A stretch of 49,303 nucleotides of DNA from Nitriliruptorales bacterium (lineage in GTDB: Bacteria > Actinomycetota > Nitriliruptoria > Nitriliruptorales > Nitriliruptoraceae). The position numbers were made by a program, and so were the translations under genes. The notes under the pieces are model-generated. The model saw only the letters and a program-made list of their open reading frames with translations. It was not told where the DNA came from and ran no database searches. Shown here piece by piece: positions 19,570 to 33,903 of this stretch; position 1 is the stretch's first letter; every line of letters starts with the position of its first letter. The stretch lies in NCBI GenBank assembly GCA_024637135.1, contig JAGXFT010000084.1, positions 1 to 49,303 on the forward strand, read 5' to 3'.

Positions 19570-21029
19570 TCCTCGGACCCGTCGACGACGTGGTCGGGCC
19601 CGTCCTGCCCGAGGCCCTGACCCAGTCGCTGGGCAGCGGACGGCTCGATCGGGGCATCGCCCAGTCCCTCGAACAACGATGACGCGTCTTCGGGGATGGC
19701 GTCGGCTGCGGCCATGCGCACCAACCATCGTGACGGCGTCGCGAGTTCCTCGGCGTCCGGCAGGTTCTCGGGGTGGGCCAGTGCCTCGTGGAGGGCAGCG
19801 CCGCCGCGGGCCGCCACGACCGCCGCCACGAACCCATCGCCGACGTCGGGGTCGTCCGCGGTCAACTGGAGTCCCAGCAGGTCAGCCAGCACCTGTTCGC
19901 CGTCGCCGGTCGCGGCGCGACGTCGGCGCAGGATCTCGTCGATGGCGTCCAGGGAGGGCAGGCGACCGGACGCCGCCGCCAGTGCCTCGTGCCGTGCCCA
20001 TGCTCGCGTCAGGGTGGTGACGCCCTGCAGGCGGGCAAGGACGCGTTGTTGGGACGCGGTCGGTTCCAACCGGAACCGACCGGCGCGACTGATGGCCTCG
20101 CCCATGGACTGGGGATCCTCGGGATCGACGCCGGTCATCGCGTCCCGCAGCATTCCCTCGAGCCGCTCCGGGTCGGGCTCGCTGCCGTTGGCGAACTGGG
20201 CCACCAGGGACTGGACGTGGGCGCCGAGCCACGGCACGGCGTGGAACAGACGCCGATGCGCAGCCTCGTGCAGGGCCAGGGCCAGGGCGACCTCCTGGTC
20301 GTCGAGGTCCCAGCCGTCGAAGGCCTCGCCGGTGTTGACCGCGACGAAGAGCGCGGTCCCGCGCGGCACGGTCGGGATCCCGAGGTCGTGGCTGCCCAGC
20401 AGTTGGCCGGCGAGGTTCCCCAGCGCCATCCCGGCGTGCAGGCCGGTGGTGGAGGACGCGAGGCGGCCGACCATGGCGCCCATGTCGATGCCGCCGAGCA
20501 TCTCGGTCATTCCCTCGGGAAGGGTGTCCAGCAGCCCCGATGCCTGCAGGTCGGGATCGTCCAGGCCCCCGTCGGGGACCAGGGCCGACATCGCCCGTCC
20601 GGTCGCGGCCGCGACCGGCTCGATGAGTGGTCGGAGGTGTTCGAGGGCCGCATCCACCCACTCGGTCCGCCGCACGACCCGGGTCCGGCCCAGGTCCGGC
20701 GGCGGTGGCAGCGAGCCGGCGTCCAGCCAGTGCTCGGCGAGTTCGATGGCCTGCTCGGCGCGCTGCTGTTCCTCCACAGACGGACCGCGATCGCCCTCGG
20801 CGGCCAGTTGGAAGGCCACCCGCCGTGCCACGTCCCAGTCCACCGGGCCCGCGACCGGTGCGGCCGACATCATGGCCTGCATCTGGGCCTGGACCTGTGG
20901 CAGCAGGTCGGCCATGGCGGACATGACCTCATCCGGATCGCCGCCGCCGAGGTTGGCCAGCAGTTCACGGACCTCCTCGGGCAGGTCGTCGAAGTTGCCG
21001 AAGTCGGGCAGGTGGTCGTCGTCGCTCAT
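19530..21029 (-). CDS. DUF2342-type zinc-dependent metalloprotease
   Basis: The 499-residue protein belongs to the actinobacterial zinc-dependent metalloprotease/hydrolase family (DUF2342, the Rv3195 type). The motif H254-EAA-H258 lies in ALHEAAHRRLFHAVPWLG, and PRGTALFVAVNTGEAFD precedes it. The N-terminus is acidic with a Met/Gln-rich segment. There is no signal peptide. The ATG at 21029 has GGGAG 5 nt upstream. It is transcribed away from the gene series that includes PDZ/S16 protease and UPF0182 genes, as in mycobacteria, so a shared quality-control task is likely. An inverted repeat CGTTGCCCA-10-TGGGCGACG lies at 21042-21069, just upstream. Confidence 0.9.
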   Translation of the reverse strand: MSDDDHLPDFGNFDDLPEEVRELLANLGGGDPDEVMSAMADLLPQVQAQMQAMMSAAPVAGPVDWDVARRVAFQLAAEGDRGPSVEEQQRAEQAIELAEHWLDAGSLPPPPDLGRTRVVRRTEWVDAALEHLRPLIEPVAAATGRAMSALVPDGGLDDPDLQASGLLDTLPEGMTEMLGGIDMGAMVGRLASSTTGLHAGMALGNLAGQLLGSHDLGIPTVPRGTALFVAVNTGEAFDGWDLDDQEVALALALHEAAHRRLFHAVPWLGAHVQSLVAQFANGSEPDPERLEGMLRDAMTGVDPEDPQSMGEAISRAGRFRLEPTASQQRVLARLQGVTTLTRAWARHEALAAASGRLPSLDAIDEILRRRRAATGDGEQVLADLLGLQLTADDPDVGDGFVAAVVAARGGAALHEALAHPENLPDAEELATPSRWLVRMAAADAIPEDASSLFEGLGDAPIEPSAAQRLGQGLGQDGPDHVVDGSEDQDAEEPDDGDEH

Positions 21030-21291
21030 GGTGTCTCCCGTCGTTGCCCAGTGTCGCACCTGGGCGACGGCCACGCGACCGCGACCGTCCGGGGTGGCGC
21101 GCCCCCGACGCAGCGGACCTGCGCGGCCCCGACACAGGTCATCGATCCGACCGCGCGGATCCCGACGATCCCCGACCGGTGGGTTAGCCTCGGTGGACGG
21201 CCGCGGCACCGGTCCCGGCGCGAACGCCACCGGGCACTCGGGACCGGCCCGGTCATGGCCGCCGGCGACGATCCGATCGACAGGACCGCAC

Positions 21292-22416
21292 GTGCCCACC
21301 ATCGCCGTCACCGGCATCAGCGGCTTCCTCGGCAGCCGGGTGCACGAACGGCTCGTGGCCGCCGGCCACCGGGTCGTGGGGGTCGACACCCAGCCGCCGG
21401 CCCAGACACACGGCCTGGTGTTCCGGGAAGCCGACGTCCGTTCGCGCGAAGACGTCCGGCGCGCGTTCCACGACGTCGACGCCGTCGTCCACCTCGCGGC
21501 CAGCAGCCCGGCCGAGGGCAGCGCCGACCGGTCGATCGACGTCGGGGGTTCGCTGGTCGTGATCGACGCCGCGATCGAGGCCGAGGTCGATGCGCTGGTC
21601 GTCGTGTCGTCGGCGATGGTCTACGGCGCCGCTCCCGACAACCCGGTGCCGCTGGACGAGTCCGCGCCGCTGCGGGCCGGCGACGACTTCGCACCGGCTG
21701 CCCACAAGCGCCTGGTGGAGGAGGCCGTGGCGGAACGTGGCGACCGCGTCCGCACCGTCGTCCTGCGTCCGGCGATGGTGGTCGGGACGGATGCCGAGAT
21801 CCTGTTGACCCGTGGCCTGCAGGGCAACCGCATGCTGGCCGTGCGCGGTCACCATCCCCCGCAGCAGTTCGTCCACGTCGACGACGTCGCGGCGGCCGTC
21901 GCGCTGGCGATCGACGAGCCCCTGCAGGGTCCTTACAACGTCGCTGCCGAAGGCTGGCTGTCCTTCGACGAGACCCGCCGGTTGCTCGGCCGTCGCGTGT
22001 GGGAGGTCCCCGAGGAGGTCGCCTTCGGGGCCACCCAGCGGGGGCATGCGCTCGGCCTGTCCAAGTTGCCGGCAAGTGGCCTGCCATGGGTCATGCACCC
22101 GTGGGTGGTCTCTCCCCAGCGGCTGGTCGACGCCGGCTGGCGACCGACCCTGTCCAATCGTGACCTCGCGGCCCTGCTGGCCGCGGAGGTCAACGATCGC
22201 ATCGAGATCGCGGGGGTCAGCACCGACCGGCGCACCGTGGCACGGGCCGGCGTCGCCGCCGCTGCCTCCGTCGGTGGCCTGCTCGCGCTCGGGTTGTTGG
22301 CTCGCCGACGTCGTGACACCGACCCCGCCACCGGCGAGGGCGGCCCAGGCACGCCCGATCCCGACACGCCTGACCCAGGCACGACCGACCCAGGCACGCC
22401 GGACGAGCACGCATGA
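21292..22416 (+). CDS. NAD-dependent epimerase/dehydratase-like SDR protein with membrane tail
   Basis: The 374-residue protein begins with an extended-SDR Rossmann domain (G8-x2-G11-x2-G14 in GISGFLGSR) and keeps the strand VVVSSAMVYGAAP. The catalytic YxxxK is not intact: K139 is present in AAHKRLVEE, but the position four before it is P135 instead of Tyr. Classical SDR chemistry is therefore doubtful. After about residue 300 comes a hydrophobic segment (VAAAASVGGLLALGLL), a basic RRRR and a Pro/Asp/Thr-rich repeat tail. GTG 21292 follows AGGA. Its stop overlaps the moaE start by 4 nt. Confidence 0.84.
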   Translation: MPTIAVTGISGFLGSRVHERLVAAGHRVVGVDTQPPAQTHGLVFREADVRSREDVRRAFHDVDAVVHLAASSPAEGSADRSIDVGGSLVVIDAAIEAEVDALVVVSSAMVYGAAPDNPVPLDESAPLRAGDDFAPAAHKRLVEEAVAERGDRVRTVVLRPAMVVGTDAEILLTRGLQGNRMLAVRGHHPPQQFVHVDDVAAAVALAIDEPLQGPYNVAAEGWLSFDETRRLLGRRVWEVPEEVAFGATQRGHALGLSKLPASGLPWVMHPWVVSPQRLVDAGWRPTLSNRDLAALLAAEVNDRIEIAGVSTDRRTVARAGVAAAASVGGLLALGLLARRRRDTDPATGEGGPGTPDPDTPDPGTTDPGTPDEHA

Positions 22417-24413: not shown

Positions 24414-24524
24414 CCCGGGCGCGTCCCCCGCTGGCACCCACCCCAGCCCCGACGCCCGGGATACCGTGTCGAGGCCGGCGGGCGTGGACCGGCGATGGGG
24501 CGATCCACCGTCCAGGAGGACGAG

Positions 24525-25649
24525 ATGACCACTGGCCAGGCCGCGCCCCCGTCCACGACGGCCCCGCAGGCCCGTCCTCGTCGTCGCGCCCCGATCGGCC
24601 CGATCGTCCTGCTCATGCTGCTGGTCGCCGGTGCGCTGTGGGTGACCGGCGTCGTGCCCTGCTCGGCAGTCGAGGCCCAGCCGGAGTGCTGGGTCGCGAT
24701 GCTCCCCGGGCCGACCGAGGACGTCGACGACCTGATCGAGGTCTCCGGCACCGAGGCCTATGGCTCGGACGGGGAACTGCTGCTGACGACCGTCCTGGTG
24801 GACAACCGCCTGACGGTGCGCGAGTACGTGGAGGGACTGGGCGACGGCGACGTCGAACTGCTGCGACGCGAGGACCTGTACCCGCCGGGTCGGACCGTCG
24901 ACGACGCCGCGCTCGAGAACGACATCATGATGTCGGACAGCCAGTTGGACGCGAAGGTGGCGGCGCTGACCGAGCTGGGCATCTCCTTCGACGACCTGCC
25001 GGCCGGGGCCGAGATCGTGACCGTGATCGACGACAGTCCCGCGACCGGCACCGACCTCGTCCCCGGTGACGTGATCGTGGCGGTCGACGACGCCGAGGTG
25101 GGCAACGTCGACGAGGCCGTCACCCTGCTCGGTGACCACGAGCCCGGCGACGAGGTGGCCCTGGCCGTGCAGCACGACGGCGAGGACATCACGATCGACC
25201 TCACCCTGGGTGACAATCCGGACGAGCCCGGTCGCCCGTACGTCGGGGTGCTGTTGCGCGACTACCAGGTCCTGCCGGTCGACATCGACATCGACGCGGG
25301 CTCCATCGGCGGGCCGTCGGCGGGACTGGTCTTCGCGCTCGGGATCATCGACCGCGCCACACCTCAGGACCTGACCGGCGGACGCAACGTCGCCGCGACC
25401 GGCACCATCCAGTCCGACGGGACCGTCGGACCGATCGGGGGGATCGTCCAGAAGATCGTCGGTGCGGTGGGTTCCGACCACTCGGCCGAGGTCTTCCTGG
25501 TGCCGGCGGGAAACTGGGAGGACGCCCAGACCGCGTCCCCGGGGCGTCCGGTGACGATCGTGCGGGTGGCCGACCTGGAGGAGGCGGTCGATGCCCTGGA
25601 GGTGCTTGCCGACGGCGGCGAACCGGACTCGGCCGTCCACCTCGGCTGA
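24525..25649 (+). CDS. PDZ-domain S16 (Lon-like) membrane protease
   Basis: The 374-residue protein has an N-terminal membrane anchor (about 24-44), a PDZ domain (about 155-230; LVPGDVIVAVDDAEV) and a C-terminal Lon protease domain with the Ser/Lys dyad S265 (GSIGGPSAG) and K310 (GIVQKIVG). There is no ATPase module, as in YlbL/Rv3194c-type proteins. It probably cleaves exported or membrane proteins. The ATG follows a perfect AGGAGG. A TACCGT -10 candidate is at about 24463. With the DUF2342-type protease and UPF0182 it forms a set also grouped in mycobacteria. Confidence 0.93.
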   Translation: MTTGQAAPPSTTAPQARPRRRAPIGPIVLLMLLVAGALWVTGVVPCSAVEAQPECWVAMLPGPTEDVDDLIEVSGTEAYGSDGELLLTTVLVDNRLTVREYVEGLGDGDVELLRREDLYPPGRTVDDAALENDIMMSDSQLDAKVAALTELGISFDDLPAGAEIVTVIDDSPATGTDLVPGDVIVAVDDAEVGNVDEAVTLLGDHEPGDEVALAVQHDGEDITIDLTLGDNPDEPGRPYVGVLLRDYQVLPVDIDIDAGSIGGPSAGLVFALGIIDRATPQDLTGGRNVAATGTIQSDGTVGPIGGIVQKIVGAVGSDHSAEVFLVPAGNWEDAQTASPGRPVTIVRVADLEEAVDALEVLADGGEPDSAVHLG

Positions 25650-25719: not shown

Positions 25720-26685
25720 ATGCTTGCTGCCTACGCCGACTCCTTCCATCCCGACCAGCCGCTCGATGGGCTGGTCGTGGGCCAACGACCCGATCCCGAC
25801 GTCCCCGACGGCTGGGAACTGGTCACCGTCCGCGCTGCTGGGCTCAACCACCACGACCTGTGGACGCTGCGCGGGGTGGGGTTGGCCGAGGACAAGCTTC
25901 CCATGATCCTGGGTGGCGCTGCGGCCGGTGTGACGGAGGACGGTCGCGAGGTCATCTGCCACGGGGTCGTGGCCGGACCGGACGGCAGGGGTGACCAGTC
26001 CGACCCCGACGTGTCGTTCAGCCTGTTCAGCGAACACCACCCCGGGACGCACGCCGAACGCCTGGCCGTGCCGACGGTGAACCTCGTGGACAAGCCCGAG
26101 GATCTGTCCTTCGACGAGGCGGCCTGCCTCCCCGTGGCGTGGTTGACGGCCTACCGGATGCTGTTCGTGCGCGGGGGCTTCACGCCGGGCGACACGGTCC
26201 TGGTCCAGGGTGCCGGCGGCGGCGTGTCGACCGCGGCCGTGCTGCTGGGCGTCGCAGCCGGGCTGGAGATGTGGGTCACCAGCCGTGATCCCGACAAGGC
26301 CGACCGCGCCCTGGAGTTGGGCGCGCACCGGGCCTTCGCGTCCGGCGAACGCCTGCCGCGGCGGGTCGATGGCGTGCTGGAGACGGTCGGCAAGGCCACC
26401 TGGGAGCACTCCCTGAAGTCCACCCGCGACCAGGGCACCGTGGTCGTGGCCGGCATGACCAGCGGGGATGCCCCCGGTGGCCTGCCGCACCTGTTCTTCC
26501 GCCAGCTCAACGTGGTCGGATCGACGATGGGCACTCGCCGCGAACTCCAGGCGTTGGTCCACTTCCTGGTCACGACCGGGGTCCGACCGCTGGTCGACGA
26601 GACCTACCCGCTGGCCGATGCCGAGCAGGCCTACCGCCGTATGGCCGACGGTGACCTGTTCGGCAAGATCGTGTTGACCACGTGA
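25720..26685 (+). CDS. Zinc-type alcohol dehydrogenase-like quinone oxidoreductase (MDR family)
   Basis: The 321-residue protein is a medium-chain dehydrogenase/reductase. The GroES-like part contains VRAAGLNHHDLWTLRGVGL, and the Rossmann part contains VLVQGAGGGVSTAAVLLG (about 164-181) with the NADP loop TSRDPDKADRALELGAHRAF. The structural-zinc cysteines and usual catalytic-zinc ligands are absent, as in quinone oxidoreductase-like members, so NADPH-dependent reduction without metal is likely. It appears leaderless. Its last 4 nt overlap the start of the DivIVA-type gene (GTGA), coupling the two although their functions seem unrelated. Confidence 0.87.
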   Translation: MLAAYADSFHPDQPLDGLVVGQRPDPDVPDGWELVTVRAAGLNHHDLWTLRGVGLAEDKLPMILGGAAAGVTEDGREVICHGVVAGPDGRGDQSDPDVSFSLFSEHHPGTHAERLAVPTVNLVDKPEDLSFDEAACLPVAWLTAYRMLFVRGGFTPGDTVLVQGAGGGVSTAAVLLGVAAGLEMWVTSRDPDKADRALELGAHRAFASGERLPRRVDGVLETVGKATWEHSLKSTRDQGTVVVAGMTSGDAPGGLPHLFFRQLNVVGSTMGTRRELQALVHFLVTTGVRPLVDETYPLADAEQAYRRMADGDLFGKIVLTT

Positions 26686-28166
26686 ACCCGGCCGCCATTC
26701 GCGACCAGCGCTTCCTGCTGGTCCGTCGCGGGTACGACCCCGAGGCGGTGCTGTCCTTCCTGGACGAGGTGGCAGACGCGTTGGAGGCCGCCCGGGCCGG
26801 CCAGGGCGACACGACCTCCGGCGCCGTGGAGGTCGCCGACGCCGACCGGTTGGTGGACGAGGCCCGCACTCGTGCCGCCACCCACCGGCTGCGGGCGCAG
26901 CGGGACATCGAGGCCCTGCATCGGACCGCGCGGGCCCGACGGGCACGGTTGGTCGCCGAGATCGAGGAGCTCGCGGTCGCCCGGGACCAACTGTCCGAGG
27001 ACCTCGACCGGGCCGTCGACGTCGTCGACCGGGTGGTCCAGTGGGTCCGCCGGACCGACCCGGCCGCGGACGCGACCGTGGGTGGCACCGTGCTGGCCGA
27101 ACCCGGGAGCGACCCCCCCGCCGAGCCCGCCGAGGTGGCCCCGACGCCGCCACCGGACCTCGACGACCTGCCCGACGTGCCCGATGTCGGTGTCGACCTC
27201 GATGACCCCAACGACCCCGACGTTCCTGATGCGGCTGATGGGGCGGCCGCCGAGGAGGACGCCACGCTGGCGGCCACCGAGGACGAGTCCCCGGCCGAGG
27301 TGCCGGTCGATCCGGTGGCCGAGTCCGCCGACGAGGCGTCGGTCGACGGTGCGGACCCGGACGACGAGGACGATTGGGGCCACGGGGGCGACGGGGGCGA
27401 CGGGGACGTGGCTGCGGTCGCTGCGGACCCGACACCCGACGCCGCGCCCGACCCCGACGACCAGGTGGCCGGCCCCGTGCCCGTGCCGGGTGGCGAGGCG
27501 GTGCGCGACGCCCTGCGATCGGTGCAGGACGAGGTGCTGGGCAACCTGCGTGACCGGCCCCGTGGGTCGGTGGACGACTGGGTGCCGTCGACGACCGTGC
27601 TGCTGGCGCTGGACGATGCCGCGACCGACGCCTGCGGGCGGGCCTTCCTGGCCGGGTGGGACGAGGCAGACCCCGAGTTCGACGACGACGTCGACGCCGG
27701 ATCGGGGCAGTCGGCCCCGGCTGCCCGCGACGCCCTGGAGGAGGTCCGCGGCGCCGGTTCGCTGCCGGGTCTGGGGATCGCCGACGACCTGCGGGTGGCG
27801 GTCCGGGCCAGCCTCCAACGCGGTGTCGACGGTGGCGACGCGCCCCCGCAACTGGTCGAGCGCGTGGCCGAGGTGCATCGCGACGTCCGCCAGACCGTCG
27901 TCGTCGAGGCGCTGGACCTGGCGACGTCCGCCGCCCGCCACCACGGGCTGGTGGCGCGGTGGCGCCATGACGACGTCACGGCGATCGCGTGGGTGCTGGG
28001 CGAGGAGCGGCGCTGCCCGGGGCGGCGGTGCCGGGCCAACGCCAATGACGGGGTGGTGGCACCGGGCGAGACCTTCGCGTTCGGAGAGGTGGTCCCGCCG
28101 GCACACCCGGGATGCACCTGCACCGTGCGTCGGGTCGAGCCCGACGAGGTGGCGTCCGGGGGCTGA
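26682..28166 (+). CDS. DivIVA-domain protein with phage-head-like (MuF-type) Cys/His C-terminus
   Basis: The 494-residue protein combines unusual parts. Residues about 5-38 match the DivIVA membrane-curvature segment (RFLLVRRGYDPEAVLSFLDEV). A charged coiled coil runs from about 50 to 120, then a very acidic Pro/Asp-rich linker from about 139 to 265. Residues about 270-485 end in C445-x4-C450, GETFAFGEVVPPAHPGCTC and C478-x-C480. That last pattern (PPxHPxCxC) is the hallmark of phage Mu gpF-like head-morphogenesis proteins, yet no phage genes are adjacent. A role at cell poles or the septum with a metal-binding or structural C-terminus is inference. GTG 26682 overlaps the previous stop. Confidence 0.8.
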   Translation: MNPAAIRDQRFLLVRRGYDPEAVLSFLDEVADALEAARAGQGDTTSGAVEVADADRLVDEARTRAATHRLRAQRDIEALHRTARARRARLVAEIEELAVARDQLSEDLDRAVDVVDRVVQWVRRTDPAADATVGGTVLAEPGSDPPAEPAEVAPTPPPDLDDLPDVPDVGVDLDDPNDPDVPDAADGAAAEEDATLAATEDESPAEVPVDPVAESADEASVDGADPDDEDDWGHGGDGGDGDVAAVAADPTPDAAPDPDDQVAGPVPVPGGEAVRDALRSVQDEVLGNLRDRPRGSVDDWVPSTTVLLALDDAATDACGRAFLAGWDEADPEFDDDVDAGSGQSAPAARDALEEVRGAGSLPGLGIADDLRVAVRASLQRGVDGGDAPPQLVERVAEVHRDVRQTVVVEALDLATSAARHHGLVARWRHDDVTAIAWVLGEERRCPGRRCRANANDGVVAPGETFAFGEVVPPAHPGCTCTVRRVEPDEVASGG

Positions 28167-28225
28167 CAACTCGCCGCCTCCCGACACCAGTCCACCACCG
28201 GGGCCGCCCCCACACGCCGTCCCAG

Positions 28226-28231
28226 TACGAT
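28226..28231 (+). promoter_or_regulatory. -10 element TACGAT for UPF0182
   Basis: TACGAT lies 27 nt upstream of the TTG start and 60 nt after the previous stop, suggesting an internal promoter for the last two genes of the series. Confidence 0.4.
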
Positions 28232-28258
28232 CCGTGGTCCGTCGACCCCGGAGCACCG

Positions 28259-31180
28259 TTGCCCACCTGGATTCGTCAACGCCTGCCGCTGGTCCTGATC
28301 GGCGCAGTCGTCCTGACCCTGTTGTTCGGCAATCGGCTGGCGCTGTTCCTCACCGACTTCTGGTGGTTCCGGGCCGTCGGGGCCCGCGAGGTGTTCACCG
28401 GGGTGCTGTTCACCCGCCTGGGGCTGACCGCGATCGGGACCGTGGTGGCCGCCAGCGTCATCGTCGCGAGCCTGCAGATCGCTCGACGGCTGCGGCCCAC
28501 GGTCGTGCCGTCGAGCCCCCAGCAGGCCGCGATCGAGCAGTACCGCAACCAGGCCGAGCCCTACCTGAAGTGGTTGGTCGCGGGCGTGGCCGCGTTGTTC
28601 GGGCTGTCGTCGGGTGCAGCCCTGGGCGGCGGCTGGGCGACCTACCTGCTGTGGCGCAACGGCGGCTCGTTCGGGCAGGTCGATCCCCAGTTCGGCCGCG
28701 ACGTCGGCTTCTTCGTCTTCGAACTGCCGTGGTTCCAACTGCTGCAGTCGTGGGCCTTCACCACGCTGATCCTGGTCACGATGCTGACCGCGGGCGCGCA
28801 CCTGCTGCTGGGCGGCATCCGCCCCGACGCGCCGCGGGACAAGGTCCTGCCCAACGTCAGGATCCACCTCTCGCTGTTGCTGATGGTCCTGCTGGCCATT
28901 CGCGGCTGGGGATACTGGCTCGATCGCTACGAACTCAACTTCTCCGAGCGCGGCACGGTCACCGGCGCCTCCTACACCGACGTCAATGCCGAACTTCCCG
29001 CCCTGTACCTGTTGCTGGCCGCGACGGTGGTCGCGATCCTGCTGGTGGCGTGGGGGCTGCGGCAGAACTCGTTCACGCTGCCCGGCGTCGCCATCGCGTT
29101 GCTGGTCGTGAGCTCGATCGTGCTGCAGGGTGCCTATCCGGCTGCGATCCAGCGCCTGCGCGTCGACCCCCAGGAACTCAACCGGGAACAGGAGTACATC
29201 GCGGCCAATCTCGACATGACCCGGGCCGCCTACGAACTGGAGCAGGACGCGATCGAAATCCAGTCCTTCGACGTGACCGACGACCTCGACCGGCCCCAGA
29301 TCGAGGCGAACCGACCCACCTTCGACAACGTCCGGTTGTGGGACCCGGAGCTGCTCAAGGACAACTACCAGGAGTTGCAGTCGCTGCGCCCGTTCTACCG
29401 GTTCGAGGACGTCGACATCGACCGCTACGAGATCGACGGCGAGTCCCGCCAGGTGATGTTGTCGACCCGCGAACTGGACCCCACGAACCTGTCGGGCTGG
29501 CAGAACCAGCGCCTGACCTACACGCACGGCTACGGCATCGTGGCGAGCCAGGTCAACACCGCGACCAGTCGCGGTCAGCCGGTCTTCGTCGCGTCCGACA
29601 TCCCGCCCCAGGCCAACGAGGCCGTCGACCCGGAGGGCGTGCTCGTGCCGGAGGAGCCCGGGCTGTACTACGCCGAGGCCGGCTTCCTGGACTACGGCAT
29701 CGCCAACACCGAGCAGGACGAACTGGACTACGAGGAACCCGGCGACAACCAGCAGGTGTTCACCCAGTACGACGGTGACGGCGGTGTGCCACTGGGCGGC
29801 ATGGGAAGCCGGTTGGCGTGGGCGCTGCGCTTCTCGGATCCCAACTTCATCCTCTCCAACCTGCTCAACGACGACTCCAAGGTGCTGGTCCACCGGCGCG
29901 TGTCGGAGCGGGTCCGGGAGGTCGCGCCGTACCTGTTGCTGGACTCCGACCCGTACTCGGTGGTCCTCGACGACCGGGTCGTGTGGATCCAGGATGCCTA
30001 CACCACGACGACGCGCTACCCCTACAGCGAGTACACGCAGTTCGACCACGACGTCGACCAGACGACCACGGTCAACTACGTGCGCAACTCGGTCAAGGCA
30101 GTCGTCGATGCCTACGACGGCACCGTGACGCTGTACGTGTCGGAGCCGGACGACCCGATCATCCAGGCGTGGCGCTCGGCGTTCCCCAGCCTGTTCGCGT
30201 CGATGGAGGACGCACCGGACGGCCTGGCCGCCCACTTCCGCTACCCGGAGGACCTGTTCACCCTGCAGGCCCGGCTGTACTCGACCTACCACATCCCGGG
30301 CGTCGAGGGCTTCTACAACAAGGCCGACTCGTGGGCGATCCCCAGTGATGCCGCCGCGCGAGAGAACAGCGGCGACAACGCCGCGAACACCCCGCTGGAG
30401 CCCTACTACCTGATCATGACCCTGCCGGGCGAGAGTGAGGCCGAGTTCGTCATGATCCAGCCCTACGTGCCACGGGACCGGCAGAACATGATCGCGTGGT
30501 TGGCCGCCCGCTCCGATCCCGAGCACTACGGCGAACTGTTCGCGGTGCAGTTCCCGACCAACGACAACGTGCTCGGACCCGTGCAGGCGCACAGCCGGAT
30601 CGAGCAGCAGGCCCAGATCTCCCAGCGGATCACGTTGGTGTCACAGGCCGGATCGGACCTGATCCGGGGCAACCAGCTGGTGCTGCCGGTCGAGGACTCG
30701 TTGTTGTTCGTCGAACCGTTGTTCCTCCAGAACCAGCAGTCCAGGATCCCCGAGTTGTGGCAGGTCGTGCTGGTCATGGGTGACCAGGTCATCATGCGGC
30801 CGACCCTGGAAGGGGCACTGACGGCACTGGTGACCAACGGGCCGCCCGTGGTGGGCGATCCGACCGAGGGCCTCCCGGACCCGAACGATCCCACTGCCGA
30901 TCCCGGCGTCCCGGCGACGCCCGCCCCGACCGAGTCGGCGGAGCCGCCGACCGAGGTCGATCCTGGTGTCGATCCGGAGGCCGACCCCGCCCAGTTGCTG
31001 GACGAGGCGCTGGTCCTGTTCAGCCAGGCGGACGAGGCGTTGGCCGACGGCGACCTGGGCACCTACCAGTCCCTGACCGAACAGGCCCGGGCCCGCCTTC
31101 AACGCCTGGCCGACCTCGGTGCCCTCGGGGGACTCGCCCCGAGCGCCACCACGACGCCCAGTGCGGCGCCCGGCGGATGA
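28259..31180 (+). CDS. UPF0182 (COG1615) large membrane protein
   Basis: The 973-residue protein matches UPF0182, with about seven N-terminal membrane helices (first LVLIGAVVLTLLFGNRLALFL, then FWWFRAVGAREVFTGVLFTR) and a very large extracytoplasmic domain rich in Tyr/Asp (LTYTHGYGIV, YNKADSWAIPS, EPYYLIMTLPG). The end is a Pro/Thr/Glu-rich tail plus a short helix. Its function is unknown; in mycobacteria it neighbours a PDZ/S16 protease. I use the TTG at 28259 because GGAG lies 5 nt upstream and the protein then starts PTWIRQRLP just before the first helix. Its stop overlaps the next start by 4 nt. Confidence 0.94.
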   Translation: MPTWIRQRLPLVLIGAVVLTLLFGNRLALFLTDFWWFRAVGAREVFTGVLFTRLGLTAIGTVVAASVIVASLQIARRLRPTVVPSSPQQAAIEQYRNQAEPYLKWLVAGVAALFGLSSGAALGGGWATYLLWRNGGSFGQVDPQFGRDVGFFVFELPWFQLLQSWAFTTLILVTMLTAGAHLLLGGIRPDAPRDKVLPNVRIHLSLLLMVLLAIRGWGYWLDRYELNFSERGTVTGASYTDVNAELPALYLLLAATVVAILLVAWGLRQNSFTLPGVAIALLVVSSIVLQGAYPAAIQRLRVDPQELNREQEYIAANLDMTRAAYELEQDAIEIQSFDVTDDLDRPQIEANRPTFDNVRLWDPELLKDNYQELQSLRPFYRFEDVDIDRYEIDGESRQVMLSTRELDPTNLSGWQNQRLTYTHGYGIVASQVNTATSRGQPVFVASDIPPQANEAVDPEGVLVPEEPGLYYAEAGFLDYGIANTEQDELDYEEPGDNQQVFTQYDGDGGVPLGGMGSRLAWALRFSDPNFILSNLLNDDSKVLVHRRVSERVREVAPYLLLDSDPYSVVLDDRVVWIQDAYTTTTRYPYSEYTQFDHDVDQTTTVNYVRNSVKAVVDAYDGTVTLYVSEPDDPIIQAWRSAFPSLFASMEDAPDGLAAHFRYPEDLFTLQARLYSTYHIPGVEGFYNKADSWAIPSDAAARENSGDNAANTPLEPYYLIMTLPGESEAEFVMIQPYVPRDRQNMIAWLAARSDPEHYGELFAVQFPTNDNVLGPVQAHSRIEQQAQISQRITLVSQAGSDLIRGNQLVLPVEDSLLFVEPLFLQNQQSRIPELWQVVLVMGDQVIMRPTLEGALTALVTNGPPVVGDPTEGLPDPNDPTADPGVPATPAPTESAEPPTEVDPGVDPEADPAQLLDEALVLFSQADEALADGDLGTYQSLTEQARARLQRLADLGALGGLAPSATTTPSAAPGG

Positions 31181-32422: not shown

Positions 32423-33346
32423 TCAGGATCCCAAGGCGTTCGCGGTGCGGCCACGTGGGCTGGCATCGACCAGTTCCCAGCCGGCATCGGCCAGCGCGTC
32501 CCGTGCGTGTTCGAGTCGTTGCGGTCCCGGTCCGTCCGCCCACGGGTCGTCACGGTCGGCGACCGAGTCGAGCGTGAAGGCGGTGGGGTCGAGGTCGTCG
32601 GTCACCTCGTCCCAGTCCAGCGGCGTCGCCACCGTCGCGCGCGGATGGGCGCGTGGGCTCCACGGGGCTATCAGGGTCGCGCCCGGCGTCGACCGCGACC
32701 AGTCCAACAGGGTCCGGTCCCCGCGGTCGTCCTTGCGCATCTCCACCGTGAGGTCGTCGGGGTGGCGGTCGGCGGCCATGCGTGCCACCGCCAGCGTCAG
32801 CGGCCGGACCACCTCCGGTCCGTAGCGCCGCTCGATCGGCACCCGGACGTGGAGGCCGCGGCCGCCGCTGGTGTTGACCACGGCCGCCAGACCGAGGTCG
32901 TCCAACACCTCGCGAGTCCAGCGTGCGACCCGCGCCGGCGGCAGGTCCCGAGTGCCGGGATCGATGTCGATGACCAGGTGGTCGAGCCGGTCGGGCCGGT
33001 CCACGCGCATGACGGCCGGGTGGAACTCAACGGTGTTCTGCTGGGCGAACCAGGCCAGGTCGTCGGCGCTGTCGACCAGCGCGTAGGCGACCTCCCGGTC
33101 TGCTGACTCGGCGAACACCCGCCAGCGCTCGATGCTGTCCGGCGCATGGTCCTGCAGGTTCTTCTGGAAGAACCCCTTCTGGTGGACGCCCTTGGGGAAC
33201 CGCTTGACCGACAGCGGGCGGTCGGCCAGGTGGGGGAGCAGGCGGTCGGCCATGGCGACCAGGTGGTCGCGGAGGTCGCGCTTGGTGTGCCCGGTCTCGG
33301 GCCACAGCACCTTGTCCGGGCTGGTGAGTCTGACCTCGTCGGCCAT
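32423..33346 (-). CDS. Stand-alone LigD-type DNA/RNA polymerase (PrimPol) domain protein
   Basis: The 307-residue protein is the polymerase domain of the bacterial non-homologous end-joining system without ligase or nuclease domains. Diagnostic segments are VHQKGFFQKNL, VEFHPAVMRVDRPDRLDHLV, the metal-binding D-x-D in IDIDPG, and NTSGGRGLHVRVP. The ATG at 33346 follows a GGAAGGTGG region; the frame stays open upstream without similarity. No Ku or ligase gene is in the window. Mycobacterial relatives (PolD1/PolD2 type) act in gap filling or ribonucleotide incorporation, a plausible role here. Confidence 0.9.
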   Translation of the reverse strand: MADEVRLTSPDKVLWPETGHTKRDLRDHLVAMADRLLPHLADRPLSVKRFPKGVHQKGFFQKNLQDHAPDSIERWRVFAESADREVAYALVDSADDLAWFAQQNTVEFHPAVMRVDRPDRLDHLVIDIDPGTRDLPPARVARWTREVLDDLGLAAVVNTSGGRGLHVRVPIERRYGPEVVRPLTLAVARMAADRHPDDLTVEMRKDDRGDRTLLDWSRSTPGATLIAPWSPRAHPRATVATPLDWDEVTDDLDPTAFTLDSVADRDDPWADGPGPQRLEHARDALADAGWELVDASPRGRTANALGS

Positions 33347-33431
33347 GCCGTCCACCTTCCCTCGCCGTCGTCGGCCGAGGCGGTCGCTGGTGCCTCGGCC
33401 CGGCGAGGATGCCACACCGACCGTGACCGGG

Positions 33432-33800
33432 TCACTCGAGCGCGGGTGGCAGTTCGTCGCCGGTCGCGTTGTCGATGATGCGTCGAGCGCCCACCGGCGC
33501 GTCCAGCTCGACCACCCGCCAGAAGAGCGGTTCGCATTCGCCGTTGGGACCGCTGATGGACACCCGCACGACCTCGTCGGTCTCGACCACGGTGATCGTC
33601 GGCTCGGGCTCACAGCCGCTGAACGTGACCTCCAGTGCGTCGTCACGTCCGTCGACCGGCGCTGCCGCCAGCGCGGGTTCGTGGCCCGCCTCGGTGCAGC
33701 CGCCGAGGCCGAGCAGGCAGACGACCGCGACCCCCACGGTGGTTGCCCGCGGCACGAGGGGTCGCGGCGTCCGCGGGGCGACGGGTTCGCGGCTGGGCAT
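33432..33800 (-). CDS. Small lipoprotein of unknown function
   Basis: The 122-residue protein has a lipoprotein signal peptide ending at C35 (VCLLGLGGC), then a short beta-rich domain with C63 and C89 that may pair. The segment VETDEVVRVSISGPN looks like a small immunoglobulin-type or plug domain. I do not recognise the family. AGGGA lies upstream of the ATG at 33800. It is about 100 bp downstream of the pgl gene in the same direction, and could be transcribed with it or separately. Confidence 0.72.
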   Translation of the reverse strand: MPSREPVAPRTPRPLVPRATTVGVAVVCLLGLGGCTEAGHEPALAAAPVDGRDDALEVTFSGCEPEPTITVVETDEVVRVSISGPNGECEPLFWRVVELDAPVGARRIIDNATGDELPPALE

Positions 33801-33903
33801 CGAGATCCCTGCAGGACGGGCAGGGTCGACCGTAGGTCGCACCCGGCCAAGGTGGGCGGGGGTTGATCGGGCTGGCCGGGGCGCGCCACCGTCGGGGTCC
33901 GGA

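Follow-up and report, generated by a model that had tools for sequence, protein, structure and literature searches.

The window analysed here, meaning the whole stretch of DNA under study, is a 49,303-base contig from a 3.6 Mb genome of the class Nitriliruptoria that is 88% complete. It carries a gene whose product joins an N-terminal DivIVA domain, by way of an acidic linker, to a C-terminal domain that very likely belongs to the MuF superfamily of phage minor head proteins (Table 1); this is the only match to the fusion family in the whole genome. The original prediction, made from the sequence alone, had described a single chromosomal open reading frame for 494 aa with a GTG start, placed between a quinone oxidoreductase gene, whose stop it overlaps by 4 bp (GTGA), and a UPF0182 gene, and each of these points held. 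It had also claimed that no phage gene lies near, which held for the neighbours that Pfam annotates: all are cellular (an S8 protease, a YlbL-type PDZ-Lon protease, the oxidoreductase, UPF0182, a phosphodiesterase and MoaE), no portal or terminase gene is among them, and in relatives the gene next door is UPF0182.

The quinone oxidoreductase is found at the same place in the congener G001 (Salsipaludibacter), where the fusion gene itself is split across two contig ends (L018/L019). It was not found by tblastn in the remaining loci, and is therefore probably a local insertion.

Table 1. Features of the fusion gene and its neighbours, in window positions
Feature	Position	Strand	Basis and remarks
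YlbL-type membrane protease (PDZ + Lon_C)	24495..25649	+	Pfam; conserved upstream partner, in the window two genes upstream of the fusion gene
Zinc-type quinone oxidoreductase	25720..26685	+	Pfam; between YlbL and the fusion gene
DivIVA-linker-MuF fusion gene	26682..28166	+	494 aa, GTG start; architecture conserved in relatives
DivIVA N-terminal motif (residues 2-36, ...RFLLVRRGYDPEAVLSFLDEVADALEA)	26685..26789	+	TIGR03544 residues 2-34; PF05103 residues 3-36
Probably helical, possibly coiled-coil stretch (residues 51-125)	26832..27056	+	Sequence; weak heptad support
Acidic Pro/Asp-rich linker (residues 131-264)	27072..27473	+	Composition
MuF-superfamily domain (residues about 274-487)	27501..28142	+	PHROGs, hhalign, AlphaFold/Foldseek
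Putative metal site (C445, C450, H475, C478, C480)	28014..28121	+	Sequence
UPF0182 (PF03699) protein	28112..31180	+	Pfam E 7.7e-269; conserved downstream partner; true start codon uncertain

The DivIVA head, helical stretch and linker

The N-terminus of the fusion protein is a DivIVA domain, as had been predicted from its membrane-curvature motif. TIGR03544 matches with an E value of 3.5e-7 and 29.8 bits, above its curated cut-off of 22, and PF05103 passes on residues 1-130 alone (30.6 against a cut-off of 28), whereas the whole protein scores 25.2 and fails. Support for the predicted coiled coil behind this motif is weak, since the heptad score stands out from shuffled sequences only within residues 89-125, where 2.8% of shuffles score as high; over the whole of 51-125 the figure is 12%. 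The acidic Pro/Asp linker, put at about 125 residues in the prediction, held and is 134 residues long here, with 31% D+E, 16% P, a pI of 4.05 and a net charge of about -42; its length varies among relatives. There is no transmembrane segment (maximum 19-residue hydropathy 1.02).

The protein resembles the DivIVA/Wag31 family in its N-terminal motif followed by a probably helical region, and in lacking a transmembrane segment. It differs in being separate from the canonical gene, in its long linker and MuF domain, and in adjoining UPF0182. Relatives have a separate canonical DivIVA gene beside YggS- and SepF-like genes, whereas the fusion is the only TIGR03544 match in the window genome and in the 97% complete congener; a canonical DivIVA must therefore be missing from these two assemblies or be strongly diverged. 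Whether the fusion has replaced the main cell DivIVA is not settled by these data, and we regard replacement as no more than possible. Known DivIVA-like adaptors of the SepIVA/GpsB type also use a DivIVA-like head to place envelope proteins (PMC11571769), but no MuF domain has been described for them in the literature examined.

The C-terminal domain and the phage MuF superfamily

A MuF-type Cys/His C-terminus had been predicted, and Pfam alone cannot show it: PF04233 (Phage_Mu_F) reaches an E value of only 0.07-0.13 on the window protein (13.4-14.4 bits, gathering score 29.6), and 7.6e-4 at best in homologues. The claim held by other routes. PHROGs matched the window domain at 4.8e-7 at best and one homologue at 1.8e-15, with phrog_2662 matched by all 12 homologues, many of which also match further head-morphogenesis families. 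When 18 cellular domains were aligned by hhalign to four viral MuF regions the probability was 98.9%, with an E value of 3.9e-17 over 122 columns. The AlphaFold (AF2) model of the window domain (pLDDT 87.1, pTM 0.83) gave 80 viral Foldseek matches at E<=0.001 with a query TM of up to 0.75, and those of the top matches that carry names are mostly minor-capsid or head-morphogenesis proteins. In the reverse direction, a cellular profile retrieved MuF proteins on viral contigs down to 1.4e-26, and no DivIVA or UPF0182 match lies beside them in the stretches searched. The original prediction would have been refuted by the absence of a DivIVA match, or by a C-terminal part with no MuF match or with another fold; the profile searches and the AlphaFold model it had called for gave neither result.

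Some searches returned nothing. Sequence and fold searches of the PDB gave nothing usable, with no fold match at E<=0.001, and tblastn of the window domain against phages gave no match, a central homologue being needed as query. The Acidimicrobiia versions scanned were missed by the Pfam MuF model and by PHROGs at 0.001, and are assigned to the family through a profile built in this analysis together with the shared motif.

That motif reads C445-x4-C450 ... PPAH475-P-G-C478-T-C480 in the window protein. All 49 cellular homologues keep the C-x-C, 44 keep the His and 44 have at least two upstream Cys. Binding of a metal by these residues is probable, though it is inferred from the motif and we have no metal data. 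In one homologue (L007/L024) the C..C pair lacks its second member (CPEDMRIQN). Of the 18 domains aligned, 17 are acidic, among them that of the window protein (pI 4.6).

The likeness to the phage superfamily (PF04233; SPP1 gp7, Mu gpF) thus extends over the helical core, the C..C / H-x2-C-x-C tail, the predicted fold and profile similarity. In contrast to phage proteins, the domain here is the C-terminal part of a scaffold without transmembrane segments and has no phage context. MuF domains also occur within multidomain proteins among the MuF polymorphic toxins (PMC5576092, PMC3482391), but those are phage-borne, with an N-terminal MuF domain and a toxin behind it, whereas the MuF domain here is C-terminal and no toxin domain was found.

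Distribution, neighbourhood and descent

Homologues were found in 16/66 genomes of the window's class and in 58/396 sampled genomes of the Actinomycetota, a few of these being phage-like. The class of G366, which we infer to be Acidimicrobiia, has them in 99/148 genomes (88/110 of those of good quality), and the family occurs in another actinobacterial lineage besides these two classes. It is chromosomal, and nearly all genomes that have it carry one copy. A contig scan with a pattern ending in C[TSV]C returned 13 loci, a count that understates the range because the pattern misses CRC forms.

The original prediction had asked for a survey of co-occurrence with UPF0182. In 53 of the 55 MuF-bearing stretches examined, UPF0182 lies directly downstream on the same strand, and this recurrence makes the pairing the strongest clue that the prediction contained. 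The two exceptions are a phage-like open frame (L152) and a weak, doubtful match (L159). Upstream, YlbL is the immediate neighbour in most Acidimicrobiia loci examined and lies 3-6 kb away, or was not found, in other lineages; in 28 loci, all in the class of G366, it ends within about 110 bp of the fusion open frame or overlaps it. The same two partners therefore flank the fusion gene as form the known actinobacterial YlbL-UPF0182 pair, except that here the fusion gene stands between them, whereas other relatives of family f1 have the pair directly adjacent without it. In genomes of family f3, a DivIVA-only protein precedes UPF0182. As UPF0182 can follow either a DivIVA-only protein or YlbL directly, the MuF part is dispensable in some lineages. 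Conversely, two f40-family proteins (L125/L126) keep MuF and UPF0182 with no detectable DivIVA motif.

Several variants were observed in passing. In five cases (L165, L170, L172, L173 and L033) the gene directly upstream of UPF0182 encodes a DivIVA protein that has no MuF domain, of about 150-230 aa, the open frame being longer in L165. A 169-aa version (L030, 9071-9577), from a genome only 59% complete, runs almost straight from the DivIVA motif into the MuF tail, with the linker and helices missing, and at L028 (8489-9842) an apparent frameshift in the gene puts the DivIVA and MuF parts out of frame with each other.

In trees, the cellular MuF domains cluster by host group and fall on one side of a branch separating them from viral ones, with SH-aLRT support of 96 when 15 viral rows are used, and support of 86/89 in a smaller set with 6 viral rows. 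All 15 viral rows have the Glu of the T-E helix motif, and none of the 46 cellular rows does. A separate clade, an absent Glu and a kept Cys/His motif are what would be expected if the domain was captured long ago and its role then changed, which we consider likely. The tree has no fixed root, and within the window's class the family is patchily distributed; a single origin is not proven. The original prediction had spoken of a captured capsid-associated domain; homology to phage MuF held, and the cellular domains very likely represent an old, chromosomally fixed and phylogenetically distinct lineage rather than a recent capture.

Proposed role and competing explanations

Across several lineages of Actinomycetota the fusion adjoins the same membrane-protein gene, and it thus seems that a piece of a phage has been put to work in the cell envelope. 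Our main reading, to which we give a probability of roughly 0.5, is that the protein is a DivIVA-type scaffold which docks through a domesticated capsid domain and so positions a YlbL-UPF0182 complex at poles or septa. We read the protein as a targeting device because it is soluble, lacks transmembrane segments, has a DivIVA head and a probable docking domain, and is encoded beside a 7-TM protein and a membrane protease. It would be a second, specialised scaffold: the DivIVA head would bind curved cytoplasmic membrane at poles or septa and oligomerise, the acidic linker would act as a flexible tether, and the metal-stabilised MuF domain would dock on cytoplasmic loops or the tail of UPF0182, or on a UPF0182-YlbL complex, much as a phage MuF protein joins the portal ring. 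The expected outcome would be an envelope-facing protease complex concentrated at sites of growth or division. Localisation, binding and metal content are all inferred here, so that reuse at the cell pole or division site, which the original prediction had proposed, remains inference, as does metal binding.

A protein-docking role for MuF has precedent, in that SPP1 gp7 binds the portal (PMC5576092). The topology estimate for UPF0182 is seven hydrophobic segments followed by a large, probably extracytoplasmic part; as both UPF0182 and YlbL probably lie largely outside the cytoplasm, only short loops would be within reach of the MuF domain. This counts against the docking reading, as do the lineages in which the MuF part is dispensable, the f40-family proteins without a detectable DivIVA motif, and the failure of Pfam and PHROGs to match the Acidimicrobiia versions scanned. 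The AlphaFold model of UPF0182 (pLDDT 59.6) was too poor for a structure search or contact test.

Other explanations should be considered. The MuF domain might bind DNA, in which case the protein would tether the chromosome, or the machinery that segregates it, to the pole. SPP1 gp7 has been described as a DNA-binding protein targeted by the portal (study cited in PMC5576092), Mu gp30 is annotated as 'minor head protein and DNA pilot', and DivIVA proteins are known to anchor chromosome partners. We set DNA binding aside as unlikely because the domain is acidic, as it is in nearly all those aligned, and the gene linkage is to membrane proteins. Alternatively, the domain could be a decoy or inhibitor against phages, a capsid-like piece that poisons virus assembly, and its origin in a capsid-protein family would fit. 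This is very unlikely for a protein that is near-core and mostly single-copy in one class, has fixed envelope neighbours and lacks the viral-invariant Glu. PADLOC gave no match, and on this and the distribution of the protein a defence role was set aside.

It could also be argued that the gene is a prophage remnant, or an assembly or recombination accident joining unrelated genes, particularly as 96% of chromosomal muf genes were tied to prophages or their remnants in the 2017 survey (PMC5576092). The constancy of architecture and neighbours across the phylum and the cellular nature of the annotated window neighbours all but exclude this; our own survey contradicts it, and an architecture that recurs across the phylum is not chance. 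Finally, the C-terminal part might be unrelated to MuF and be a zinc-ribbon-like domain whose motif merely looks similar; the sub-threshold Pfam score and the lack of a PDB fold match speak for this. We consider it very unlikely too, since PHROGs, hhalign, the viral Foldseek matches and the search in the reverse direction all agree, not only at the motif but along the helices too.

A bolder version of the docking reading, which we would at present lean slightly against, holds that Actinomycetota domesticated a phage capsid-interior domain long ago, possibly only once, and that a polar or septal scaffold now docks through it to recruit a YlbL-UPF0182 protease complex. If true, it would give the MuF domain a cellular, non-viral role, with a virion part recruited into a cell-polarity protein, and would provide the first functional handle on UPF0182, which Pfam still labels an 'uncharacterised protein family'. 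About one in three sequenced tailed phages carries a MuF gene, and what the domain does is unknown (PMC5576092); a conserved lineage in cells would offer a virus-free setting in which to find its binding partner. The 2017 survey applied Pfam cut-offs (PMC5576092); the window protein and the scanned homologues would fall short of these or have not been shown to reach them. No paper naming DivIVA with MuF or 'minor head protein' was found in the full-text literature searched; subscription journals lie largely outside it, so a prior description is not excluded.

The fixed link of UPF0182 to a DivIVA scaffold and YlbL points to envelope growth or division and is testable. The YlbL of B. subtilis breaks down YneA, an inhibitor of division (PMC6051672). 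In M. tuberculosis, loss of the divisome gene rv0954 leads to depletion of mutants in 14 genes for membrane proteins, one of them rv3193c, which encodes a UPF0182 protein (PMC8093794). These reports are independent hints of a division-linked role.

Two other open frames in the window may be recorded. One on the reverse strand (32423-33889) resembles a LigD-type polymerase domain of NHEJ, judged by eye from the sequence only. The other (19696-22416) encodes a protein of 906 aa that has an NAD epimerase at its C-terminus and whose N-terminal part has no Pfam match; related proteins are found again upstream of the cluster at many loci in the window's class.
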